From Idiomarinaceae bacterium (lineage in GTDB: Bacteria; Pseudomonadota; Gammaproteobacteria; Enterobacterales; Alteromonadaceae): a DNA stretch of 64,000 nt. The translations under genes and the position numbers were made by a program. The stretch spans positions 62,001 to 126,000 of the forward strand of contig NYWU01000001.1 in NCBI GenBank assembly GCA_002685255.1, in the 5' to 3' direction. Below, piece after piece: positions 2,712 to 30,190 of the stretch. The notes under the pieces are model-generated. The model saw only the letters and a program-made list of their open reading frames with translations. It did no database searches and was not told where the DNA came from. Within the stretch, counting starts at the first letter, position 1, and each line of letters opens with the position of its first letter.

Positions 2712-2745
2712 AGTGTAAATCTCGATCATGTCAGTTCTGTGACAT
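2712..2745 (-). promoter_or_regulatory. Candidate PHO box and -10 for the downstream receptor
   Basis: On the minus strand 2745-2728 reads ATGTCACAGAACTGACAT, 14 of 18 positions matching the classical PhoB box CTGTCATAAAACTGTCAT. Exactly 10 nt later comes TACACT (2717-2712), an acceptable -10. This box-to--10 spacing equals that of E. coli phoA. The predicted 5' leader is about 45 nt. The same bases also form a dyad (TCATGTCA, 6 nt, TGACATGA, 2726-2747), so a different dimeric regulator is an alternative. PhoB control is inference. Confidence 0.5.
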
Positions 2746-2749
2746 GACT

Positions 2750-2780
2750 AAAAAAAAGCCCCTCAACAAAATTGAGGGGC
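2750..2780 (-). terminator. Rho-independent terminator of the upstream receptor gene
   Basis: A perfect GCCCCTCAA/TTGAGGGGC hairpin (2758-2780) is followed, in minus-strand direction, by eight Ts (the A-run at 2750-2757). It sits 9 nt past the stop of the 2789-5992 gene and before the promoter of the next receptor, so the two receptors are probably separate transcripts. Confidence 0.92.
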
Positions 2781-2788
2781 TCTGAGCC

Positions 2789-5700
2789 TTAGAACTCGTA
2801 ACGTACGCCGAGTTTGACAGACCATGATGATGCGCCAATGTCGTACTGGTCATAGTTCTGCGGAGCATAACCATTGAACAGACGATCGATTTGGTATTTA
2901 CCATCATCCGATAATCCACCGAAGTCATACAGGTTGACCTGCGGGTAACCTAAACGCTCTTCAACACCCCAGTCGCTGTTCAGCAAGTTAGCGAAGTTGT
3001 CGATGGTGAAGTACAAGGTACCACGGTGACCTTCAGCAAAACCTGGGATCTGTTGCTTGATGCTTAAGTCGATATCAGTAATCCATGGCTGAGTACCGCT
3101 GTTACGGTCCATGATGTAACCGCCTGGTGCGATACCGGCACGGTCAAGTACTGCGCTCAACTCGTCCCAAGATACTGAGTTCGCCCAATCTACATTTGGA
3201 TCGTTTGGACCTGATGGGATGTAAGCGAGGTAAGCTGACTGCGAGTAGAAGTCAACGGTATCGCCGAAGTCGCCATCTTGGTACATGCTCATAGTGTAGC
3301 TGAATGGACGGCCTGAACGACGCTCATAGAATAAGTTGATGTTAGTTTTGTAACCATCAAAGAATTCTTTTTCGTAACCTAAGGTTACTTTGAAGCTGTG
3401 TTCGATCTCGTAATCACCACGTGCAGAGAACGGCTGGTTACGTGTTTTAACTACGTAGTGCTTGTAGTTACTTTCTGCTTGTGATGAAGAACCTGGTGAT
3501 ACTTCTTCAACGTCTTGGTTCGTGTAGCTCATGGTCAAGTTAAGACCGTTATCCCACTGCTTAGCCAAAGACTGAGTGAAGATATAGCTGCGACCATGCT
3601 CTTCTGCGTTGGTCATCATGATATCGAAGTTATCTGAGCGGTTGCCGCTGTAGATGCTTTCGTAGATAACACGCTCACCGTCTGCTGTTGTATCAACAGG
3701 CGTCAACGCAGTGTTCAACCATACTGACTCGTCTTGCTTACGCACGTACAAGAATGACGTTGTTGCGCGGAAGTCGTCACCCACCATTGGGATATCGAAG
3801 CTGTAGTCAGCTGCTAACTGTGCACGCCAGTCGCTTGGCAATTCAAAGTTAGGGTCGATGTAGTTGGTGCTACCTGCGCCTTGCTGCAGTGAGTCTTGGA
3901 TCGCTTGTGGTACTTGTGTGAAGTCCGCAGGATCTGAGCTGTTAGCGAAGTAATCGTTGATGAAATCGCTGTTTGCCGCTACCAGCGTGATACCGTCTTT
4001 AGTGAACGGGTTACTGTACCAAACGTTAGGCACACCGCCGTAGAAACGACCTAAACCACCACGTAAAGTAACGTCGTCGTTCAAGTAGTACTTGAAGCTC
4101 ACGCGTGGCAATACGATGTCCATACCGTCTAGGTTTTCTTGGTTAGAGAAACCGTAGGTATCAACAAAGTTTTGGTTCAAAGTTGGCTTGTCATCTGATG
4201 ACAAACGCTCGTAACGAACACCGGCTGTCAACTCAAGGTCAGTTGTTGGGTAGAAAGTATCTTCTACATACAGCGCTGTCGTGTAACGTACTGCGTCATA
4301 AGCGGCATCTTCTGGGTTGCCTGTGTAGGCGTTCTGATATGAGAAGTCATACGTACCGTTGAAGTTACCTACTTCACGATTTTCGAAGCCTTCAAAGTTA
4401 TCAAATTCCCAAGTACCTAAGCTTTCAGGTACGAATTTGTTGTATAAACGCAGACGTTCGTACTCAGCACCGAATGCGAGTTCGTGTTCACCGAACAAAT
4501 ACGTTGCATCAAAGTTGAAGGTTAAGTTTTGGTTCTCAACTTTGTTTGCGTGACGGTATTCGTCTGCGCCAAATGCGTATGATGGACCACGGAAGAATTC
4601 TTCGACCGTTACCGCACCAAAGTCCGCGTTGGTGATTGAATCAGAAACAACATCTTTATAGGTGATACCCATTTCGGTGATGAAGTTTGCTGACCAGTCG
4701 CTGTACAAGCGCGCGCTGATGTTGCTCATGCGCGTGTGGTAGTCATAGATACGCGAGTTAAGAACCACTGTATCGCCGCCGCTTGAGTGGCCGCGCATAT
4801 CTGAGTTGTCTTGCCACTGGTAGGTTAAATCAAGACGGTGATCTTGGTTTACGTTCCAGCTTAATTTGGTCAACCATTTACGGTCTTTATCTTCTGGAGA
4901 GCCTGGCAGTGAATCTTGGATACCGTAGGTGTTGTCCAAAATGCGTAGGAACTCTTCGAAGTTCTCACGTGACGTATAGAACTCGTTGCTCGCGCCACTG
5001 CCTTGGAAACCGTATTGGTAATCTAACTCGCTGTTCCACTCTTCATAGTTAGTGAAGAAGAACAAGGTGTCTTCAATGATAGGGCCGCTCAGTGCCATAC
5101 CGAAAGTTGAAGTTTTTTGAATCGGTTCAACGTCAACGGTTTCGTACTCACGGAAGCCTTGGTCATTACCAGAAGAACCGGTAATACGGTTTAAGCGCTT
5201 AGAGTCGCCTTTCATGTCAGGTGAAGAGTATTCGTAGAAGAACTCGCCTTCAAACTCGTTAGTACCTGATTTAGTGACTGCGTTGATAGTACCGCCAGAG
5301 AAGTCGCCTTTCTTGCTTGAGAAAGGTGCCACGTCAACTGAGATTTGCTCAATTGAACTCAATGAAACGGGTGGTTGCTCAGTTGGGTAGCCGCCGTAGT
5401 TTAGACCGAAGTCATCGTTCTGGCCGATACCGTCAACAGTGATGCTGTTTGAGCGTGGGTTACCACCTGCAATCGACATTTCGCCGTTACCACGGATAGA
5501 TACCAATGGGTTGATGCGCGCGATGTCTTTAAGGTCACGGCTTAGGCTTGGCATGTTATCGATGGTTTCTTCACCGAAGTTGCTGCTCGCGCCGCCGCTT
5601 TCTGTCATGATGACTGAGCCAGAAACTGAAATACGCTCCATGTCGTTATTTTTCAGTTGGCTTGTCACACGTAAGGTATCACCCAAAGCAAGATAAAGAT

Positions 5701-5992
5701 TATCAAGCTCTGCGTCTTGGTATTTGTCTGAATCGATAACGACTGTGTAAGGACCACCTACACGCAGACCTTTCGCAGTAAAGGTACCGTCAGCGCTAGT
5801 GACAAACTCGTTCACAGTCCCTGTCGGTTCATGGGTAACGATAACTTTAGTGTTCGCTACTGGGTTTCCTTGTGGGCCTGTGATCACACCGCGCATTGAC
5901 GATGAGGTCTCTTGAGCCATGACACTCGTCGACATTCCTACTGCTAACGCGATGGCAGCAGAAATACGACTCACCTTGGAGTTGAATTTCAT
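2789..5992 (-). CDS. Oar-like TonB-dependent outer-membrane receptor
   Basis: A full-length protein of 1067 residues. A signal peptide (basic start, hydrophobic stretch, cleavage near VMAQ-ET) precedes a carboxypeptidase-regulatory-like domain (about 30-110), a plug (about 120-240, with NPRSNSITVDGIGQNDDFG and GGTINAVTKSG), and a barrel ending in the expected terminal aromatic (GVRYEF). The C-terminal part carries GRPFSY, a motif also seen at the start of the window in the paralogue. Such proteins work in the outer membrane with TonB-ExbBD and a periplasmic N-terminal domain; no substrate can be assigned. It is transcribed alone, with a strong terminator downstream. A PHO box in phoA-like arrangement lies upstream, hinting at induction by phosphate shortage. 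It lacks the plug cysteines of its neighbour. Confidence 0.95.
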   Translation of the reverse strand: MKFNSKVSRISAAIALAVGMSTSVMAQETSSSMRGVITGPQGNPVANTKVIVTHEPTGTVNEFVTSADGTFTAKGLRVGGPYTVVIDSDKYQDAELDNLYLALGDTLRVTSQLKNNDMERISVSGSVIMTESGGASSNFGEETIDNMPSLSRDLKDIARINPLVSIRGNGEMSIAGGNPRSNSITVDGIGQNDDFGLNYGGYPTEQPPVSLSSIEQISVDVAPFSSKKGDFSGGTINAVTKSGTNEFEGEFFYEYSSPDMKGDSKRLNRITGSSGNDQGFREYETVDVEPIQKTSTFGMALSGPIIEDTLFFFTNYEEWNSELDYQYGFQGSGASNEFYTSRENFEEFLRILDNTYGIQDSLPGSPEDKDRKWLTKLSWNVNQDHRLDLTYQWQDNSDMRGHSSGGDTVVLNSRIYDYHTRMSNISARLYSDWSANFITEMGITYKDVVSDSITNADFGAVTVEEFFRGPSYAFGADEYRHANKVENQNLTFNFDATYLFGEHELAFGAEYERLRLYNKFVPESLGTWEFDNFEGFENREVGNFNGTYDFSYQNAYTGNPEDAAYDAVRYTTALYVEDTFYPTTDLELTAGVRYERLSSDDKPTLNQNFVDTYGFSNQENLDGMDIVLPRVSFKYYLNDDVTLRGGLGRFYGGVPNVWYSNPFTKDGITLVAANSDFINDYFANSSDPADFTQVPQAIQDSLQQGAGSTNYIDPNFELPSDWRAQLAADYSFDIPMVGDDFRATTSFLYVRKQDESVWLNTALTPVDTTADGERVIYESIYSGNRSDNFDIMMTNAEEHGRSYIFTQSLAKQWDNGLNLTMSYTNQDVEEVSPGSSSQAESNYKHYVVKTRNQPFSARGDYEIEHSFKVTLGYEKEFFDGYKTNINLFYERRSGRPFSYTMSMYQDGDFGDTVDFYSQSAYLAYIPSGPNDPNVDWANSVSWDELSAVLDRAGIAPGGYIMDRNSGTQPWITDIDLSIKQQIPGFAEGHRGTLYFTIDNFANLLNSDWGVEERLGYPQVNLYDFGGLSDDGKYQIDRLFNGYAPQNYDQYDIGASSWSVKLGVRYEF

Positions 5993-6080
5993 TGAGTTAT
6001 CCCTGAGGTTGTAATTAAACGTACTAATGGTTTTGGTACAGCAAGCTCACTAGCAAATGAGCTAAATTTTGAGTGCGCAT

Positions 6081-6113
6081 TTATAACGCTGGAATATGAC
6101 AACTTGATGACAC
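6081..6113 (-). promoter_or_regulatory. PHO box with phoA-type promoter architecture
   Basis: On the minus strand 6113-6096 reads GTGTCATCAAGTTGTCAT: two TGTCAT direct repeats with an 11-bp period. It differs at only three positions from the E. coli phoA box as I recall it (CTGTCATAAAGTTGTCAC). After exactly 10 nt comes TATAAA (6085-6080), matching the phoA layout where the box replaces the -35. The predicted leader is about 80 nt to the receptor ATG at 5992. Binding by PhoB is inferred from the match alone. Confidence 0.68.
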
Positions 6114-6249: not shown

Positions 6250-6314
6250 GCAGCGGCTCAACGTAGGCTGTTTGTGAAGAACATTTAAATTCATTAAGCT
6301 TCTGCGACATTTTC

Positions 6315-6332
6315 GTGTCAGATATGTGACAT
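6315..6332 (+). promoter_or_regulatory. Weak PHO-box-like site before the exported nuclease/phosphatase gene
   Basis: GTGTCAGATATGTGACAT matches the PHO box at about 12 of 18 positions, with half-sites TGTCAG and TGACAT spaced 11 bp apart. It lies 90 nt before the chosen ATG. A T-rich -10-like stretch (TTTTAT, 6345-6350) follows after 12 nt. On its own it would be unconvincing; the two better sites before the neighbouring receptors raise its weight. Confidence 0.35.
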
Positions 6333-6421
6333 ATTTTAATCAATTTTTATCCACTTGCCTAGTGTTTAGGGAACCTTTATTCTTTTGCATTGTCGTAGCG
6401 TCCCATTCTGTAGGCTTTCAC

Positions 6422-10596: not shown

Positions 10597-12174
10597 TTAT
10601 TCCCACTCTATCGTGGCAGGCGGTTTGCCTGAAATATCGTAGGTGACTCGCGAAATACCGTCGACTTCGTTGATGATACGATTCGATACTTTCTCGAGTA
10701 GTTCATACGGTAAATGCGCCCAACGTGCGGTCATAAAGTCGATGGTCTCAACTGCACGCAGTGAAACAACCCAGTCATACTTGCGCTGGTCGCCCATAAC
10801 ACCGACCGAGCGCACGGGTAAGAACACCGCAAATGCTTGGCTTACTTTGTGATACCAATCGGCTTTATGTAGCTCATCAATAAAAATCGCATCGGCGCGG
10901 CGCAATAAGTCACAGTACTCTTTCTTAATCTCGCCCAATACGCGCACACCCAGACCCGGTCCTGGGAACGGATGACGATAAAGCATGTTATAAGGCAGGC
11001 CGAGTTCAAGACCAATTTTGCGCACTTCGTCTTTAAACAGCTCACGCAATGGCTCAACTAAACCGAGTTTCATATCCTCGGGCAAGCCACCTACGTTGTG
11101 ATGCGATTTAATGACATGTGCCTTTCCGGTTTTTGAACCTGCTGACTCGATGACATCGGGGTAGATGGTGCCTTGCGCCAGCCAGTCGACTTCGGTTAGC
11201 TGAGACGCTTGCTCGTCGAAGATCTCGATGAAGGTATTACCAATAATTTTGCGTTTCTTCTCTGGATCAGCTTCACCTTTCAGCGCGTCTAGGAAGCGTT
11301 GTTCGGCAGCGACAGGGATAATGTTTAACCCAAAGTGGTCTCCAAACATCTCCATGACTTGCTCGGCTTCATTTAAACGCAATAAGCCATTATCAACAAA
11401 CACACAGGTGAGCTGTGAGCCAATTGCACGGTGCAATAACATCGCTGTAACCGATGAGTCGACGCCACCGCTTAAGCCCAAAATCACTTTATCGCTACCG
11501 ACTTGCTCACGAATACGCTCGACAGCGTCTTCGATAATTTGTGCCGGTGTCCATTGTTTTTCGCAACCACAGATACCGCTGACAAAATGCTCGAGCATAC
11601 GCATGCCCTGACGCGTGTGGGTAACCTCTGGGTGGAACTGAACACCGTAGAAACGACGTGACTCATCCGCCATCGCCGCATATGGGCAGTACGAGGTGGT
11701 TGCAACGGTATGGAAACCCTCTGGAATGGCTTCGACTTTATCACCGTGGCTCATCCACACGTCTAGTAATGGTTTACCGTCTTCGCTGACCGCATCTTCG
11801 ATGGCTTCAAATAACGGGCTTTCTGTTACGAGCTCGATTTGTGCATAACCAAATTCACGTTCGAGAGAGCCTTGCACTGAACCACCCAATTGATGCGCCA
11901 TGGTTTGCATGCCATAGCACACGCCCAAGACAGGGACGCCCGCCTTAAATACATAGTCTGGCGCGCGCGGAGAACCGGCTTCGGTGACGCTTTCTGGCCC
12001 ACCTGAAAGGATGATGCCTTTTGGATCGAAGTCTTTAATGTCTTGCTCGTCGACATCCCATGCCCACAGCTCACAGTAAACGCCAATTTCACGGATACGG
12101 CGCGCTATTAGTTGGGTGTATTGAGAACCGAAGTCTAAAATCAAAATTCGGTGGTCGTGGATATCTCTGCTCAT
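10597..12174 (-). CDS. guaA: GMP synthase (glutamine-hydrolysing)
   Basis: 525 residues, the normal length. It converts XMP, ATP and glutamine to GMP in the cytoplasm. The N-terminal class I glutamine amidotransferase shows the nucleophile elbow GVCYGMQ and the HPEV triad segment. The central ATP-pyrophosphatase domain has the P-loop SGGVDSSV, and the C-terminal dimerisation domain ends in the conserved PPATIEWE. It lies downstream of guaB with a terminator-like hairpin in the 69-nt gap, so part of its expression may depend on readthrough or on its own promoter. Confidence 0.98.
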
Positions 12175-12204
12175 TGTTGGGTCCCAGTAACAGATAAAAC
12201 TAAA

Positions 12205-12232
12205 AGTAAAAGAGCCGCCTTAGCGGCGGCTC
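12205..12232 (-). terminator. Hairpin with T-rich tail between guaB and guaA
   Basis: GAGCCGCC and GGCGGCTC (12212-12232, 5-nt loop) form a strong stem. Reading the minus strand it is followed by a T-rich tail (TTTTACTTTTAG). It lies just after the guaB stop and before the guaA start, and could reduce guaA transcription relative to guaB. Confidence 0.75.
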
Positions 12233-12243
12233 ACAAAGCGGTA

Positions 12244-13779
<1,536 letters not shown>

Positions 13780-13780
13780 C

Positions 13781-15100
13781 TTATTCTGAGCACTTTCTAA
13801 CGTTAAATTCGCCACCTGCGACTTTAACATTGAGTTTTTGCTCATCTTGGGCCTGCTCAGGCTGGGTGATTACGCGTCCCGCTTCGTCTCGCACAATGGC
13901 GTACCCTCTATCAAGGGTATTCAGTGGACTCACCAAGTTTAATGCGTGCAGTAACGCCCTGTGGCGCTGGTGTTGTTGTTTGAGCCATGCTTCAGCGACT
14001 AACGGTATCCGTTGCTGAATCTGCAAGAGCTTCTGTTGAGCACGCGACAATTCTCGCTGCGGGTGGACCTGCTGCAAGCGCTGGATAACATGCTGACATC
14101 GCTGTTGCTGATTAATCAAGGTTCGCTGCTGGGCGCGATACACTCGCGCTAATAATTCATCTAAACGCTGACTTTGTTGTTGCAACTGTCGTTGCGGATG
14201 CTGTTGATTCAGTCGAATTTGTAGTTGTTGTAGTAAACTGTGTTGACGCTCTATGCGGCGCTTTTGGCCCGTCGCCAAGCGCTGTTGTAACTGCTGTAAA
14301 CGATTGACTTGAGCGCTACGATCTTGAGTCACCTGCTCGGCGGCTGCCGACGGTGTCGGCGCTCGCAAGTCGGCGATAAAGTCACAGATGGTAAAATCAA
14401 CCTCGTGGCCGACCGCACTGATAACAGGCATCGGGGCGTCTAATAATAAACGACCCACCTGCTCATCATTAAAACACCAAAGGTCTTCTAACGAACCACC
14501 GCCACGGGTCACTAGCAGCACATCGACTTCATTACGCTGAAACGCAGTGAGTAAGGCGTTTTTTATTTGCGGTATGGCCGCGTCGCCTTGCACAGCGGTC
14601 GGGTAAATAATGACCTCGACGCTCGGATCGCGGCGCTTCATCACCGCTAACACATCTTGAACAGCTGCGCCTGTCGGCGACGTAACCACACCAACACGGC
14701 GGATGTGTTCCGGCAGTGGCCGCTTGCGCTCTTGCGCAAATAACCCCTCGGCGGCAAGTTTTACTTTGAGTTGCTCAAACTGCTGCTGCAACAAGCCGAT
14801 ACCGGCCTCTTCCATATGCTCAACAATGAGTTGGTAGTCGCCACGCGGCTCGTACACCGTCACTCGGCCACGCACTAACACTTGCACGCCATTTTGCGGG
14901 CGTACTTTGGCGCGCTGATTATTACCACGGAACATGGCACAGCGTATCTGGGCGCGTTCATCCTTTAAGGTGAGATACCAATGGCCCGAGTTTGGTGCGG
15001 CAAAATTGGATATTTCGCCCATTAACCATACGTGCCCAAAGCCCTGCTCTATGGCCTTACGGATATCGCTGTTGAGTTGTGTGACGGTATATATCGACAT
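13781..15100 (-). CDS. xseA: Exodeoxyribonuclease VII large subunit
   Basis: 439 residues from the ATG at 15100. With XseB it degrades single-stranded DNA in both directions. An OB-fold at the N-terminus ([22 protein letters not shown]) precedes the catalytic core ([55 protein letters not shown]). A long, Gln/Arg-rich helical region follows with repeated HPQR(Q/E)L units, as in other XseA proteins, and the family C-terminal motif [13 protein letters not shown]. The frame continues upstream to 15160, but the first 20 codons have no family similarity and overlap met boxes, so the shorter start is taken. No xseB is in the window. Confidence 0.95.
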
Positions 15101-15146
15101 GCGCAAATCATAACACACCCAAAGTGCGTGCCACCATATCACATTT

Positions 15147-15178
15147 GGACGTCTAAACATCTTGACGGTTAAACGTAA
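15147..15178 (+). promoter_or_regulatory. Tandem MetJ met boxes before the metX-metY operon
   Basis: Four contiguous 8-mers GGACGTCT, AAACATCT, TGACGGTT and AAACGTAA match the met box AGACGTCT at 7, 6, 5 and 5 positions. MetJ dimers bind arrays of 2-5 such boxes cooperatively. The array overlaps the predicted -35 (TTGACG, 15162-15167), the right place for repression by MetJ with S-adenosylmethionine. It supports the methionine assignment of the next two genes. Confidence 0.68.
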
Positions 15179-15191
15179 GTATTGCTAAATT
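15162..15191 (+). promoter_or_regulatory. Promoter of the metX-like gene
   Basis: TTGACG (15162-15167), an 18-nt spacer and TAAATT (15186-15191). It is followed by a ribosome site GAGGT a few nt before the ATG at 15224. Confidence 0.5.
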
Positions 15192-15223
15192 GAATTCATT
15201 AATTAATTAGCGTTGAGGTCATC

Positions 15224-16174
15224 ATGGTTTTTCCGGTAGGACGCTCCTTTTATACAGAAACACCTTATGGACGGGTGAAAGGCTTTCGTTTCGGCAATGT
15301 TGATGCGGAACCCGAAAATACAGTGATTGTGCAAGGCGGTATCAGCGCCAGTGGTCAACTTTGGCGTTTAGACGGTTATGGGTGGTGGCAGTCGTTACAC
15401 CCGCTATTTGCGCCGCACCCTGAGCTGCAAGTGATCAGTTTAGATTACCTCGGTGGCGTGGGCGGCTCTGATACACCTGACGAACCTATTACACTGGCAC
15501 AGCATGCCGAAGCTTACGCGCACACATTGAAGTTGCTCGATTTGCAGCATCCCGGCGCTTGGGTAGGTGGCTCATTTGGCGGCGTTCTCGGTTTGCAGTT
15601 GGTACAGGATGGGCTCATTAAACCCGATGCACTGGTCGTGATTGGCGCGGCCCATCAACCATCGGTGCAATCGGCGGCACTGCGCCTATTTCAGCAAGCG
15701 TTATTGCAACAAGCCGATTGTAGCCAGCAAGGAGTGGTCCTTGCGCGGGCACTGGCCATGTTGACTTACCGCAGCGCAGATGAATTTGAGCAGCGCTTTA
15801 ATGATGGCGATGAAGCCTTTAGCTATTTACTGGCGCAAGGTGAAAAACTACTTAAGCGGCATGGTCAGCATGCGCAGAGCTTGTTTACTCATTTGACGCC
15901 TATTTTAAACGAGTACCGAATCGACCCATCGCGCGTTACGGTGCCAGTGCAACTGGTTGGCTTTGAGTCCGACATTATTGCGCCCCCGCGCTTGATGCAT
16001 CAGTTAGAGGCGGCGTTACCGGATTGCCGTGGACTCGCCCTGATTGATACACCTTTTGGACACGATGGTTTTATTAAGAACGTAGCCGACTACGCCGCTG
16101 TTGTGCGCCATTTTTTGCCCCAACTAAAGACGACACGAGGTGCTCAATCACCCCTGACCGAGGATATTTTATGA
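15224..16174 (+). CDS. metX: MetX-like homoserine O-acyltransferase (alpha/beta-hydrolase fold)
   Basis: 316 residues, alpha/beta-hydrolase fold. The nucleophile elbow is GGSFGG, the acid is probably the Asp in ESDIIAPP and the histidine lies in FGHDGFI, a motif close to the GHDAFL of MetX homoserine acyltransferases. It would activate homoserine with acetyl- or succinyl-CoA; which acyl group cannot be read from sequence. It is short for MetX (usually about 340-380 residues). Its stop overlaps the start of a MetY-type sulfhydrylase by 4 nt (ATGA), and met boxes precede it; both fit methionine synthesis. Without this context it would be called only an alpha/beta hydrolase. Confidence 0.8.
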   Translation: MVFPVGRSFYTETPYGRVKGFRFGNVDAEPENTVIVQGGISASGQLWRLDGYGWWQSLHPLFAPHPELQVISLDYLGGVGGSDTPDEPITLAQHAEAYAHTLKLLDLQHPGAWVGGSFGGVLGLQLVQDGLIKPDALVVIGAAHQPSVQSAALRLFQQALLQQADCSQQGVVLARALAMLTYRSADEFEQRFNDGDEAFSYLLAQGEKLLKRHGQHAQSLFTHLTPILNEYRIDPSRVTVPVQLVGFESDIIAPPRLMHQLEAALPDCRGLALIDTPFGHDGFIKNVADYAAVVRHFLPQLKTTRGAQSPLTEDIL

Positions 16175-17445
16175 AAGACGAAACGTTAGCGATTCATCAT
16201 GGTTATACCACCGACGCAACTACCAAGGCGGTTGCTACGCCGATTTATCAGTCGGTCGCTTTTGAGTTCGATAACGCCCAGCATGGGGCCGATCTATTTG
16301 ATTTGACGGTGCCGGGTAATATTTATTCGCGCATTATGAATCCGACTCATGATGTACTCGAGCAACGCGTTGCCGAGCTCGAACATGGCATCGCAGCACT
16401 CGCCGTTGCATCGGGGATGGCTGCGATTGAATATGCGCTGATCACGCTCGCCAGTCAGGGCGATAATATTGTCACTACGCCGCAGCTCTATGGGGGCACC
16501 TATACCTTGTTCCGCCACATGCTGCCCTCGTTTGGCATCGAGGTACGCTTTGCTGAAAATGATACGGCAGAAGCGGTTGCAGCGCTCATTGATGACAACA
16601 CCAAAGCCGTTTATTGTGAAACCATTGGCAACCCCGCGGGTAATGTAGCGGATTTAGAGGGCCTCGCTGAGGTCGCTCATGCCCAAGGCGTACCGTTAGT
16701 GGTTGATAACACAGTGGCTTCACCGGTGCTCTGTAAACCCATCGATTTTGGCGCCGATATTGTCGTGCACTCGTTAACCAAGTATATCGGTGGCCACGGG
16801 ACCTCGGTGGGCGGACTGATCGTGGACTCAGGTCGTTTTGACTGGGTTAAGCATAAAGACCGCTTCCCACAGTTTAGTCAGCCGGAGCCCGCGTATCATG
16901 GCATTGTCTATACCGAGGCATTTGAGGCTGCTGCTTTTATTGCGCGGGTCAGGACCGTTGCACTGCGCAATACCGGTGCGGCGATTTCACCGTTTAATGC
17001 GTTTTTAATCCTGCAAGGGCTCGAAACGCTCCCGCTACGGATCGAGCGTCATTGCGAAAACGCACTGAAAGTGGCTGAGTATTTGCGTGAGCACCCGCAG
17101 GTTGAGTGGGTACGTTTTGCCGGCTTTGAGGATGATGCTTATTACCAACGGGTGCAAAAATACATTAATGGCGGTGTTCCTGCTTCGCTGCTGACCTTTG
17201 GAATTAAAGGAGGGTTTGAGGCCGGTGTCCGTTTTTACGACGCATTAGCGCTATTCAAACGTTTGGTGAATATTGGCGATGCTAAGAGTTTAGCGTGTCA
17301 TCCTGCTTCTACCACTCACCGCCAGCTCAATGAGCAAGAACAAGCGGCGGTTGGTGTGACACCTGAGGCGATACGCCTTTGTGTGGGTATCGAACATATT
17401 GACGATATTATTGGGGATCTCGAGCAAGCCTTACAGCAAGCATGA
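16171..17445 (+). CDS. metY: O-acylhomoserine sulfhydrylase (MetY-type, PLP-dependent)
   Basis: 424 residues of the Cys/Met-metabolism PLP family; the length and the IHHGY N-terminus fit O-acetylhomoserine aminocarboxypropyltransferase rather than MetB or MetC. It would join sulfide to O-acylhomoserine to give homocysteine. The PLP lysine is in HSLTKYIGGHG, and SRIMNPT, the aromatic stacking region ASGMAAIEYAL, and the C-terminal ACHPASTTHRQL phosphate/substrate motif are present. It is translationally coupled to the MetX-like gene. Together they form a two-step direct-sulfhydrylation route. A bidirectional terminator follows. Confidence 0.93.
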   Translation: MKDETLAIHHGYTTDATTKAVATPIYQSVAFEFDNAQHGADLFDLTVPGNIYSRIMNPTHDVLEQRVAELEHGIAALAVASGMAAIEYALITLASQGDNIVTTPQLYGGTYTLFRHMLPSFGIEVRFAENDTAEAVAALIDDNTKAVYCETIGNPAGNVADLEGLAEVAHAQGVPLVVDNTVASPVLCKPIDFGADIVVHSLTKYIGGHGTSVGGLIVDSGRFDWVKHKDRFPQFSQPEPAYHGIVYTEAFEAAAFIARVRTVALRNTGAAISPFNAFLILQGLETLPLRIERHCENALKVAEYLREHPQVEWVRFAGFEDDAYYQRVQKYINGGVPASLLTFGIKGGFEAGVRFYDALALFKRLVNIGDAKSLACHPASTTHRQLNEQEQAAVGVTPEAIRLCVGIEHIDDIIGDLEQALQQA

Positions 17446-28712: not shown

Positions 28713-29579
28713 TTATTCCTGCTGGTTAGGAAGCTGCAAACTCAGCTCAATACGCTCGCCATTACGTAGCACCGTCACTGTCGCTTCGGTCGCATCCTGT
28801 AACTGGCTGCTCAGCTCAGAAGCTTGTTGCATATCGGTCAAGTCGTAGCCGTTAATCGCGACGGCTAGGTCACCTTCCTGAAAGCCTGCTTGGTAAAAGA
28901 TATCGGCCTGATTCCCAGGCGAAAGACGGTAGCCTTGCAGACTACCTTGTTCTAAAACGGGTGCGATAGACACATAATCGAGTAACTGACCGGGGTCACG
29001 TTTTACTCGCTGTAACGCATCCGAGGTGTTATTTGCTTGATTAGCTTCGGCTTCACCGCTCTCTACCACCAATGACAGCGCGGGACGATCTTCGCCAATG
29101 TCTTCTAATTGCAGTGTCTCTAAGCGCCCACCGTTATCTAAAATGACACGGTCAGCGAGAATTTGCTCAACGGTGACACGAGTGCGACCAATAGCGTCGC
29201 CAACTATATAAGTCGACTGCTTGCCTGCTTGTTCGATTATAGCGGCCGAGCGCTCCGGTCGTGAACTTGCGGAAACGCCTACGAGACGAACATTTAAAGA
29301 TGTTTTAGGGGCGTTGGCATAATCATTACCCCGCGTCTGCGTGCCCGCCTGCTGACGACCAAAAATCGGTAATTGCTGTAGCTTAGCGAGATCGACACTT
29401 TGGTTATCGCGGTTTTGTGCGCGCACATCAACGCTAGGACGCTGTTGTGTTTCAGGTGAAGGCGTCATAAACCACCAAGTCGCTTGCGCCGCAACAATGA
29501 CAACCCATATCCACAAAAGCACCGTAACTACAGTTACGGAACGGGATATCCACTGATTCGCGTTCTGGGTTGATGGCAT
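28713..29579 (-). CDS. gspC: Type II secretion inner-membrane protein C (with PDZ)
   Basis: 288 residues. One N-terminal membrane helix (about 15-35), a homology-region domain that binds the secretin N0 domain (LPIFGRQQ and RLVGVSAS), and a C-terminal PDZ domain (GYRLSPGNQADIFYQAGFQEGDLAVAINGYDL). It links the inner platform to GspD. An in-frame TTG lies 4 codons upstream; the ATG at 29579 is preferred. It is the first gene of the operon. Confidence 0.95.
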   Translation of the reverse strand: MPSTQNANQWISRSVTVVTVLLWIWVVIVAAQATWWFMTPSPETQQRPSVDVRAQNRDNQSVDLAKLQQLPIFGRQQAGTQTRGNDYANAPKTSLNVRLVGVSASSRPERSAAIIEQAGKQSTYIVGDAIGRTRVTVEQILADRVILDNGGRLETLQLEDIGEDRPALSLVVESGEAEANQANNTSDALQRVKRDPGQLLDYVSIAPVLEQGSLQGYRLSPGNQADIFYQAGFQEGDLAVAINGYDLTDMQQASELSSQLQDATEATVTVLRNGERIELSLQLPNQQE

Positions 29580-29640
29580 TAGGCTTATCAATTTAATTCA
29601 CTTTTATCGTTGTTGTTTTACCGAAGCAATGCGCTACATC

Positions 29641-29777: not shown

Positions 29778-29794
29778 ATTTTCGTGACGATTTT

Positions 29795-30190
29795 ATGACA
29801 CAAGACAGCGGTGTAAGGCTCGACAAATGGCTCTGGGCAGCTCGATTTTATAAGACTCGGGCGCTTGCGCGTCAGATGGTTCAGGCGGGCAAGGTACATG
29901 TTGCAGGTAAACGCAGTAAGCCCTCTAAGCTCGTGCAGGTGGGTGACCGAATCACCTTGCGACAAGGCTTTGACAGCAAAGAGGTCGAAGTGTTGGCGCT
30001 GAGCGAGCAACGACGAGGAGCGCCCGAGGCTCAATTACTTTACCAAGAGTCTGAGGCGAGTATAGAAAAGCGTGAACAGAATGCGGAGGCACGTAAACTG
30101 AACGCGCTTTATAACCCACACCCCGACAAGCGTCCGGACAAAAAACAACGTCGGCAACTGATTAAAATGAAAGATGGTGGTAATACATGA
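29795..30190 (+). CDS. hslR: Hsp15, ribosome-associated heat-shock protein
   Basis: 131 residues. An S4 RNA-binding domain at the N-terminus (VRLDKWLWAARFYKTRALARQMVQAGKVHV) is followed by a basic, highly charged C-terminal tail, as in E. coli HslR. It binds free 50S subunits that still hold a nascent chain. It overlaps hslO by 4 nt (ATGA), the same pairing as in other gammaproteobacteria. Confidence 0.96.
   Translation: MTQDSGVRLDKWLWAARFYKTRALARQMVQAGKVHVAGKRSKPSKLVQVGDRITLRQGFDSKEVEVLALSEQRRGAPEAQLLYQESEASIEKREQNAEARKLNALYNPHPDKRPDKKQRRQLIKMKDGGNT

Follow-up and report, generated by a model that had tools for sequence, protein, structure and literature searches.

In a 64,000-nucleotide stretch of an Idiomarinaceae bacterium (contig NYWU01000001.1, positions 62,001 to 126,000, of a draft genome of 2.77 Mb), hereafter the window, two genes for Oar-like TonB-dependent outer-membrane receptors are each preceded by a candidate PHO box that lies 10 nt before a -10 hexamer; we consider it probable that these receptors belong to a PhoB-induced, TonB-powered system for the uptake of nucleic-acid-derived phosphorus. 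At low phosphate, PhoB would bind the direct-repeat boxes, here called site B and site A, each 10 nt before its -10, and both receptor genes would be switched on. Similar boxes precede pstS, phoB, a TonB2/ExbB/ExbD gene set beside pst-phoBR, a type II secretion operon and the genes for a PhoD phosphatase and a DUF47 (PhoU-like) protein, so that all of these would be induced jointly. Phosphoesterases beyond the inner membrane, including the product of the divergent gene P0003, would then cleave organic phosphorus compounds, whose breakdown products the receptors would import with energy from the Pho-linked TonB2 complex. The boxes, their spacing, conservation and ranking, and the gene neighbourhoods form the computed part of this model; from them we infer PhoB binding, induction, the co-operation of the receptors with that particular TonB2 copy, the export of P0003 and the nature of the cargo.

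The first receptor gene, P0001 (2789..5992, minus strand; 1067 aa, assigned with Pfam), has its closest named relatives found in Idiomarina, with 98% identity in Idiomarina sp. MD25a. The second, P0002 (1..2659, minus strand; OMP_b-brl_4, CarboxypepD_reg and Plug), starts at 2659 and is present in the window with its first 886 residues; it continues past the window start (homolog match G000:C3:61507-64656, G000 being the host genome). An initial annotation, made from the letters alone, had described the two as paralogs, and they share 36% identity. Both contain PF13620 (CarboxypepD_reg) and PF25183 (OMP barrel), while Plug is above its cut-off in P0002 and slightly under it in P0001 (22.3 vs 23.9); since the CarboxypepD_reg extension and the barrel occur in both proteins, the label "Oar-like TonB receptor" is a fair one. 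A hairpin with a T-run (2751..2781, minus strand), read from the sequence, is the probable terminator of P0001. It lies directly upstream of site A, a like arrangement being present in most aligned relatives, and with a terminator in this position P0002 probably has its own promoter.

Site B (GTGTCATCAAGTTGTCAT; 6096..6113, minus strand) is situated 121 bp before the P0001 start codon and has the form TGTCAT-N5-TGTCAT, identical at 15 of 18 positions to the phoA box CTGTCATAAAGTTGTCAC; the 10-nt spacer ATTCCAGCGT separates it from the hexamer TATAAA (6080..6085, minus strand). Site A (ATGTCACAGAACTGACAT; 2728..2745, minus strand), 86 bp before the P0002 start codon, matches the PHO consensus CTGTCATAAAACTGTCAT at 14 of 18 positions, and its spacer GATCGAGATT, again of 10 nt, leads to TACACT (2712..2717, minus strand). 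The initial annotation had described both sites in these terms, including the three differences between site B and the phoA box, and every detail was recovered at the same positions; the phoA promoter layout on which it relied was likewise found, as a box, 10 nt and TATAGT directly upstream of the annotated Escherichia coli phoA. A third box, site D (GTGTCATAAAATCGTCAC-N10-TAAAAT; 29784..29801, minus strand), lies upstream of a type II secretion operon, the first gene behind it being gspC (28713..29591, minus strand; PF11356). The direct repeat TGTCA-N6-TGTCA, with its 11-bp period, is exact in B and has one change each in D (CGTCA) and A (TGACA), and at each of A, B and D a -10-like hexamer follows after 10 nt.

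A weight matrix was built from the pstS and TonB2-gene-set promoters of 19 genomes of the genus (37 of 38 promoters, 29 distinct sites; the pstS promoter of L151, which is without the first T of the pattern, was dropped), and neither A, B, C nor D was in the training set. Two versions were used: a stricter matrix, in which the spacer was scored and the pseudocount low, and a relaxed one that gave the spacer no weight and used a higher pseudocount. The relaxed version was chosen after the poor rank of site A under the stricter one had been seen, and both results are given. With the relaxed matrix, scoring box and -10 on both strands, site D is the highest-scoring PHO box of the window (23.7), followed by B (20.6) and A (15.8), with no further site above 9.2; B still holds rank 2 under the stricter matrix. 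In 60 Markov windows, sites scoring at least 15.5 numbered 0.13 per window on average, and those scoring at least 20 numbered 0.017. Three sites in the window (A, B and D) match the PHO consensus at 14 or more of 18 positions, where 10 Markov windows averaged 0.1 such sites. By these figures the boxes exceed what chance would give. That the boxes are nonetheless chance matches seems to us scarcely credible: the motifs are short, site A is weak under stricter scoring and the 60 Markov windows included at least one with a site scoring over 20 (the single best at 21.7), but the ranking, the conservation and the enrichment tests all speak against it.

Other promoters of the same genome provide a scale for these scores. 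In comparison stretches totalling 90.5 kb, most of them picked for holding phoB or exact matches to the repeat, the relaxed matrix gave 36.1 for pstS and 34.5 for the TonB2 set (both trained), 17.2 for the DUF47/PhoU-like gene, 16.4 for PhoD, 16.1 for phoB and 15.8 for a lipoprotein-like gene, values with which the 15.8 of site A may be compared. The whole genome was also searched with a profile built from the sequences of those training sites alone; of 1162 first-look candidates, 150 received a score, and the resulting list may therefore be incomplete. The matches listed at E<=10 were, in that order, the TonB2 operon, pstS, B, D and phoB, all five with a box, 10 nt and a -10-like hexamer. Among these listed matches site B thus stands third, behind two training promoters, and site D fourth, both above phoB; the expectation that a matrix would rank the receptor sites with those of pstS and phoB was therefore realized for site B.

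Boxes at the same spacing precede receptors across the genus. Site B and its -10 are identical in I. baltica (L007), whose locus retains the other box too, and MD25a (L009), have two box changes and one hexamer change in I. fontislapidosi (L011), and can still be made out in the diverged I. tyrosinivorans and ATCH4. Among 229 genes from 26 loci, the best upstream site scored 9 or more for 20 of 36 receptors and 3 of 178 other genes, but for none of 15 Exo_endo_phos genes; at 13 or more, 12 of the receptors remained and no gene of the other two sets. The 36 receptor genes include some from outside the genus; the test left out the loci L015 and L018 and the gene P0002, which is open at the window edge, together with genes having fewer than 60 bases upstream, an exclusion that removed some receptors lying behind spurious open reading frames (ORFs).

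The comparison with relatives also bears on a second explanation of the sites. Site A is at the same time a perfect inverted repeat (TCATGTCA-N6-TGACATGA), a similar one (6316-6331) lies within site C, and the genome has only six exact copies, of which two are 3.6 kb from each other; the sites could thus be inverted repeats TGTCA-N6-TGACA of another regulator rather than PHO boxes. We rejected this explanation, which we hold to be very unlikely. The reversed control pattern occurs five times, so that with six copies the inverted repeat is not enriched. In relatives, the place of site A, which aligns with their second-receptor promoters, is occupied by a TTCAC-N5-TGTCA-N10-TATACC-like sequence (scores 2.8 to 17.3); the palindrome is shared only with L007, L009 and L011, whereas in the other aligned relatives the direct repeat and the -10 stay and the palindrome is lost. 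Furthermore, TGACA half-sites are also found in the TonB2 array, where they are conserved across the genus. Since relatives hold a box-like sequence at this place and the palindrome is limited to those three, site A is best read as a drifted PHO box whose palindrome is incidental.

Some further box-bearing sequences were encountered in the course of this comparison. A second pair of Oar-like receptors of the same genome fills a 6.6-kb contig (L099, G000:C20:1-6561), and the second of its genes has an upstream box with TACCCT after 10 nt (score 15.7). In a relative (L273, G016:C1:148300-151550) a gene that by eye resembles a TonB receptor is accompanied by a box with TACAAT after 10 nt (17.9). 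A box-like sequence of Pseudoalteromonas, CTTAAATGAAACTGACAT with TACATT, was considered as a promoter; it falls inside the reading frame of an S1/P1 nuclease and was for that reason not counted.

The regulator and the motor that the model calls for are both encoded in this genome. Its PhoB is genuine (361 bits, above the cut-off), and the gene adjoins a phoR-like gene and pstS. On the same strand upstream of phoB, past one unrelated-looking gene, are the genes for a porin, a TPR protein, TonB, ExbD, ExbB, a long ExbB-like protein and a DUF3450 protein. This TonB2 energiser set with its porin gene, beside pst-phoBR, occupies 11159-17349 of locus L054 (G000:C25:71159-77349), and Pfam assigns to it PF11932 (DUF3450), PF01618 twice, PF02472, PF03544 and TPR. 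An array of 11-bp PHO repeats, ending in a box, 10 nt and TAAAGT, can be aligned in 19 of 19 genus genomes (one with TAGAGT), and in all 19 the set lies about 9-11 kb from pstS; the second DUF3450/TonB2 copy of the genus scores 9 or more in none of the 19. Outside the genus, a box of at least 9 precedes the best homolog of the set's first gene in 10 of 11 genomes, these eleven being the ones, among 17 searched, for which a TonB2 locus was returned. pstS was located in four of the eleven, linked in G033 (5.6 kb) and distant in G019, G023 and G031; G019 and G023 keep the TonB2 box, and G031 (score 3.6) does not. Judged from these promoters, a PHO-controlled TonB2 motor looks widespread in this bacterial family, and the Pho-linked copy may be the one that serves the Oar-like receptors. 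As for the secretion operon, the best site within 400 bp upstream of gspC scores at least 12.2 in 19 of 19 genus genomes (the weakest, L192, without a clear -10), and an upstream site reaches 9 in one of seven genomes outside the genus.

Boxes were also observed before other genes. Upstream of a DUF47/PhoU-like gene (L059 96-1011, minus strand), a PHO box is followed after 10 nt by TATATT, and a PHO box accompanies the gene of a lipoprotein-like protein that has no Pfam or NCBIfam match (L062 1-1862, minus strand); a protein of a relative (L267) with a similar N-terminus has one as well. In genus relatives (L255-L263, L265, L266, L269-L271), strong PHO boxes stand before genes that by eye are EAL-domain-like, chemoreceptor-like and acyltransferase-like, hinting that lack of phosphate may also steer signalling, movement and lipids in these bacteria.

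The enzyme divergent from both receptor genes, P0003 (6422..7615, plus strand), has the exo/endonuclease/phosphatase fold (Exo_endo_phos, PF03372, E 1.7e-29), and its N-terminus, judged by eye, suggests that it is exported. Residues N34, E86, H237, D294, N296 and S384-D385-H386 are invariant in 18 aligned sequences, and the family alignment retains the residues expected of the fold, including the SDH near the C-terminus; these conserved residues presumably have a catalytic role. Before the gene lies site C, a candidate weak PHO box (GCGACATTTTCGTGTCAG-N10-TATTTT; 6304..6337, plus strand), which has the same box-to--10 geometry as the others, yet a matrix score of only 0.7; it is kept in L007 and L009-L011 and recognisable in L104-L108. 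The ORF called mechanically for P0003 begins at GTG 6326, within site C, while both the signal-peptide-like N-terminus and comparison with relatives favour ATG 6422 as the actual start.

Evidence on the cargo comes from the genes that surround members of the receptor family. As seeds we used Exo_endo_phos (EEP), S1/P1 nuclease, phosphodiesterase (PDE), 5'-nucleotidase, alkaline phosphatase, NupC, uridine kinase, DeoA and Cdd, identified with Pfam on examples and in the remaining loci by phmmer against those. Such neighbours are present in 10 of 11 genus loci, where they are Exo_endo_phos, and in 12 of 13 other loci, the set that supplied most of the seed genes. For an order-wide sample, strong matches were used (E<=1e-200, reached in 28 of 295 order genomes) and 20 loci were drawn from them; 17 of these 20 had such neighbours, the exceptions being L302, L306 and L307; the seeds were chosen from loci of the family, and the fair comparison is therefore the 15 of 18 that remain without two species already seen when the seeds were picked. 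None of 20 shifted control regions (15 from the sampled genomes, five from genus or family relatives) contained a seed, and around other TonB receptors (20 loci, six genomes) there was one positive, L360, with NupC and uridine kinase, which contains a further member of the receptor family. Outside the genus the neighbours are S1/P1 nuclease, 5'-nucleotidase, type I phosphodiesterase, alkaline phosphatase, a NupC-type nucleoside transporter, uridine kinase, cytidine deaminase and thymidine phosphorylase. The receptor locus L318 resembles a nucleoside set, with NupC, uridine kinase and Exo_endo_phos and, by eye, purine nucleoside phosphorylase and phosphopentomutase. No SusD-like neighbour was noticed by eye in the ORF lists, in which no SusD profile search was made. 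From such neighbourhoods the cargo is most likely derived from nucleic acids, as oligonucleotides, nucleotides or nucleosides; the suggestion of the initial annotation that the receptors may import a phosphorus compound thus gains separate support from nuclease, phosphoesterase and nucleoside genes, and its phosphate-starvation interpretation is, at the level of sequence, supported.

The same neighbourhoods must be set against two other views of what the receptors carry and why. They could be PhoB-controlled and yet transport something other than phosphorus, such as a metal cofactor for the phosphatases, a carbon polymer, or a protein, as in the traffic ascribed to Oar of Myxococcus; the TonB2 system of Vibrio vulnificus serves iron (PMC6957404) and Oar is linked to C-signal communication (PMC3222651). 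This we find unlikely in view of the neighbouring genes: in a count confined to nuclease, phosphoesterase and nucleoside genes, 17 of 20 loci of the family have such a neighbour, compared with 1 of 20 loci of other receptors. Less likely still is that the receptors are general scavengers of nucleic acids and nucleosides for carbon and nitrogen, on which PHO control was a late addition within the genus, a view that departs from ours in the purpose of the uptake and not in its cargo. In its favour, receptors of the family beyond the genus have NupC, uridine kinase, cytidine deaminase or thymidine phosphorylase as neighbours, and PHO boxes are patchy there; against this, no nucleoside-salvage seed was found next to the receptors in the 11 genus loci, whereas receptor boxes recur in them.

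A number of results weigh against phosphorus uptake under PhoB control. Site A was not among the matches listed in the genome profile scan, so that it did not rank with pstS and phoB there, its score on the box-plus--10 matrix (15.8) being close to that of phoB (16.1); the stricter matrix puts it only sixth (18-mer) or eighth (34-mer) in the window. When the scan was applied to 18 relatives at E<=2, with matches assigned by comparison with gene positions, a receptor-upstream site was returned in five (G009, G011, G014, G016, G018) and a gspC site in three (G009, G010, G018). Within the genus, four receptors remain below 9, namely the second of L100 (8.3), the second of L102 (8.1), the first of L110 (6.1) and the second of L105 (2.8), the last value belonging to a row anchored at a TAA in the second-receptor alignment. 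Beyond the genus, receptor boxes are patchy, being found in five of L301-L320 (L305, L309, L312, L314, L315) and in L112, the second receptor of L113, L116 and L117. The P0003 box is weak, none of the 15 Exo_endo_phos genes reaches 9, and the nucleoside-salvage neighbours can also serve carbon and nitrogen supply. Finally, sequences of solved structures gave no match to P0001 at E<=1 and none to P0003 at E<=0.01.

Dissolved DNA and nucleotides make up a sizeable pool of marine phosphorus, and the passage of nucleic-acid fragments through the outer membrane is usually ascribed to passive porins. Receptors powered by TonB and switched by PhoB would, if our reading is true, add an active route for such fragments, would offer a likely substrate class for Oar-like receptors of unknown cargo, and would imply a separate TonB motor kept for phosphate famine. 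A broader proposal, which we advance tentatively and judge to be somewhat short of an even chance, is that the receptors define a TonB-dependent family importing the products of nucleases, and that in Idiomarina the whole chain is switched by PhoB, from type II secretion and phosphoesterases through the paired receptors to a dedicated TonB2 motor.

Several parts of such a system have counterparts elsewhere. TonB receptors under PhoB control are known from the PhoB regulon of Caulobacter crescentus, an Alphaproteobacterium, in which type II secretion is also tied to the phosphate response; no PhoB-controlled ExbB operon and no receptor adjoining salvage genes turned up in the excerpts of these reports (PMC11208175, PMC2996285). 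Flavobacterium, a member of the Bacteroidetes, has phosphate utilisation systems, with PusCD and Pi-inducible TonB transporters, in which phosphate depletion induces outer-membrane TonB transporters whose genes cluster with those of phosphoesterases; extracellular nucleases are induced as well, but the type is SusCD with a SusD lid (PMC8115612), whereas the receptors here are Oar-like and have PHO boxes, and a TonB2 gene set lies close to pstS. The TonB2 system of V. vulnificus (TtpB2, TtpC2, ExbB2, ExbD2, TonB2, TtpD2) has the same parts as the set on C25, with DUF3450 first, TPR last and ExbB, ExbD and TonB between; that operon is induced by lack of iron (PMC6957404), while the C25 copy stands beside pst-phoBR with a PHO array. 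The Oar-like receptors of Xanthomonas (PMC1790865) and the Oar of Myxococcus (PMC3222651) have, as here (CarboxypepD_reg), an N-terminal extension before the plug, and a link to phosphate starvation was not found in the excerpts of either report. In the open-access literature, judged by titles and abstract openings, we recognised no PhoB-controlled Oar-like receptor and no Pho-linked TonB2 operon, which does not prove their absence, and neither the receptor family nor its association with nucleoside salvage turned up there. The kind of system is already known, and its apparently new part is the receptor family, the association of that family with salvage genes, and the Pho-linked TonB2 motor.

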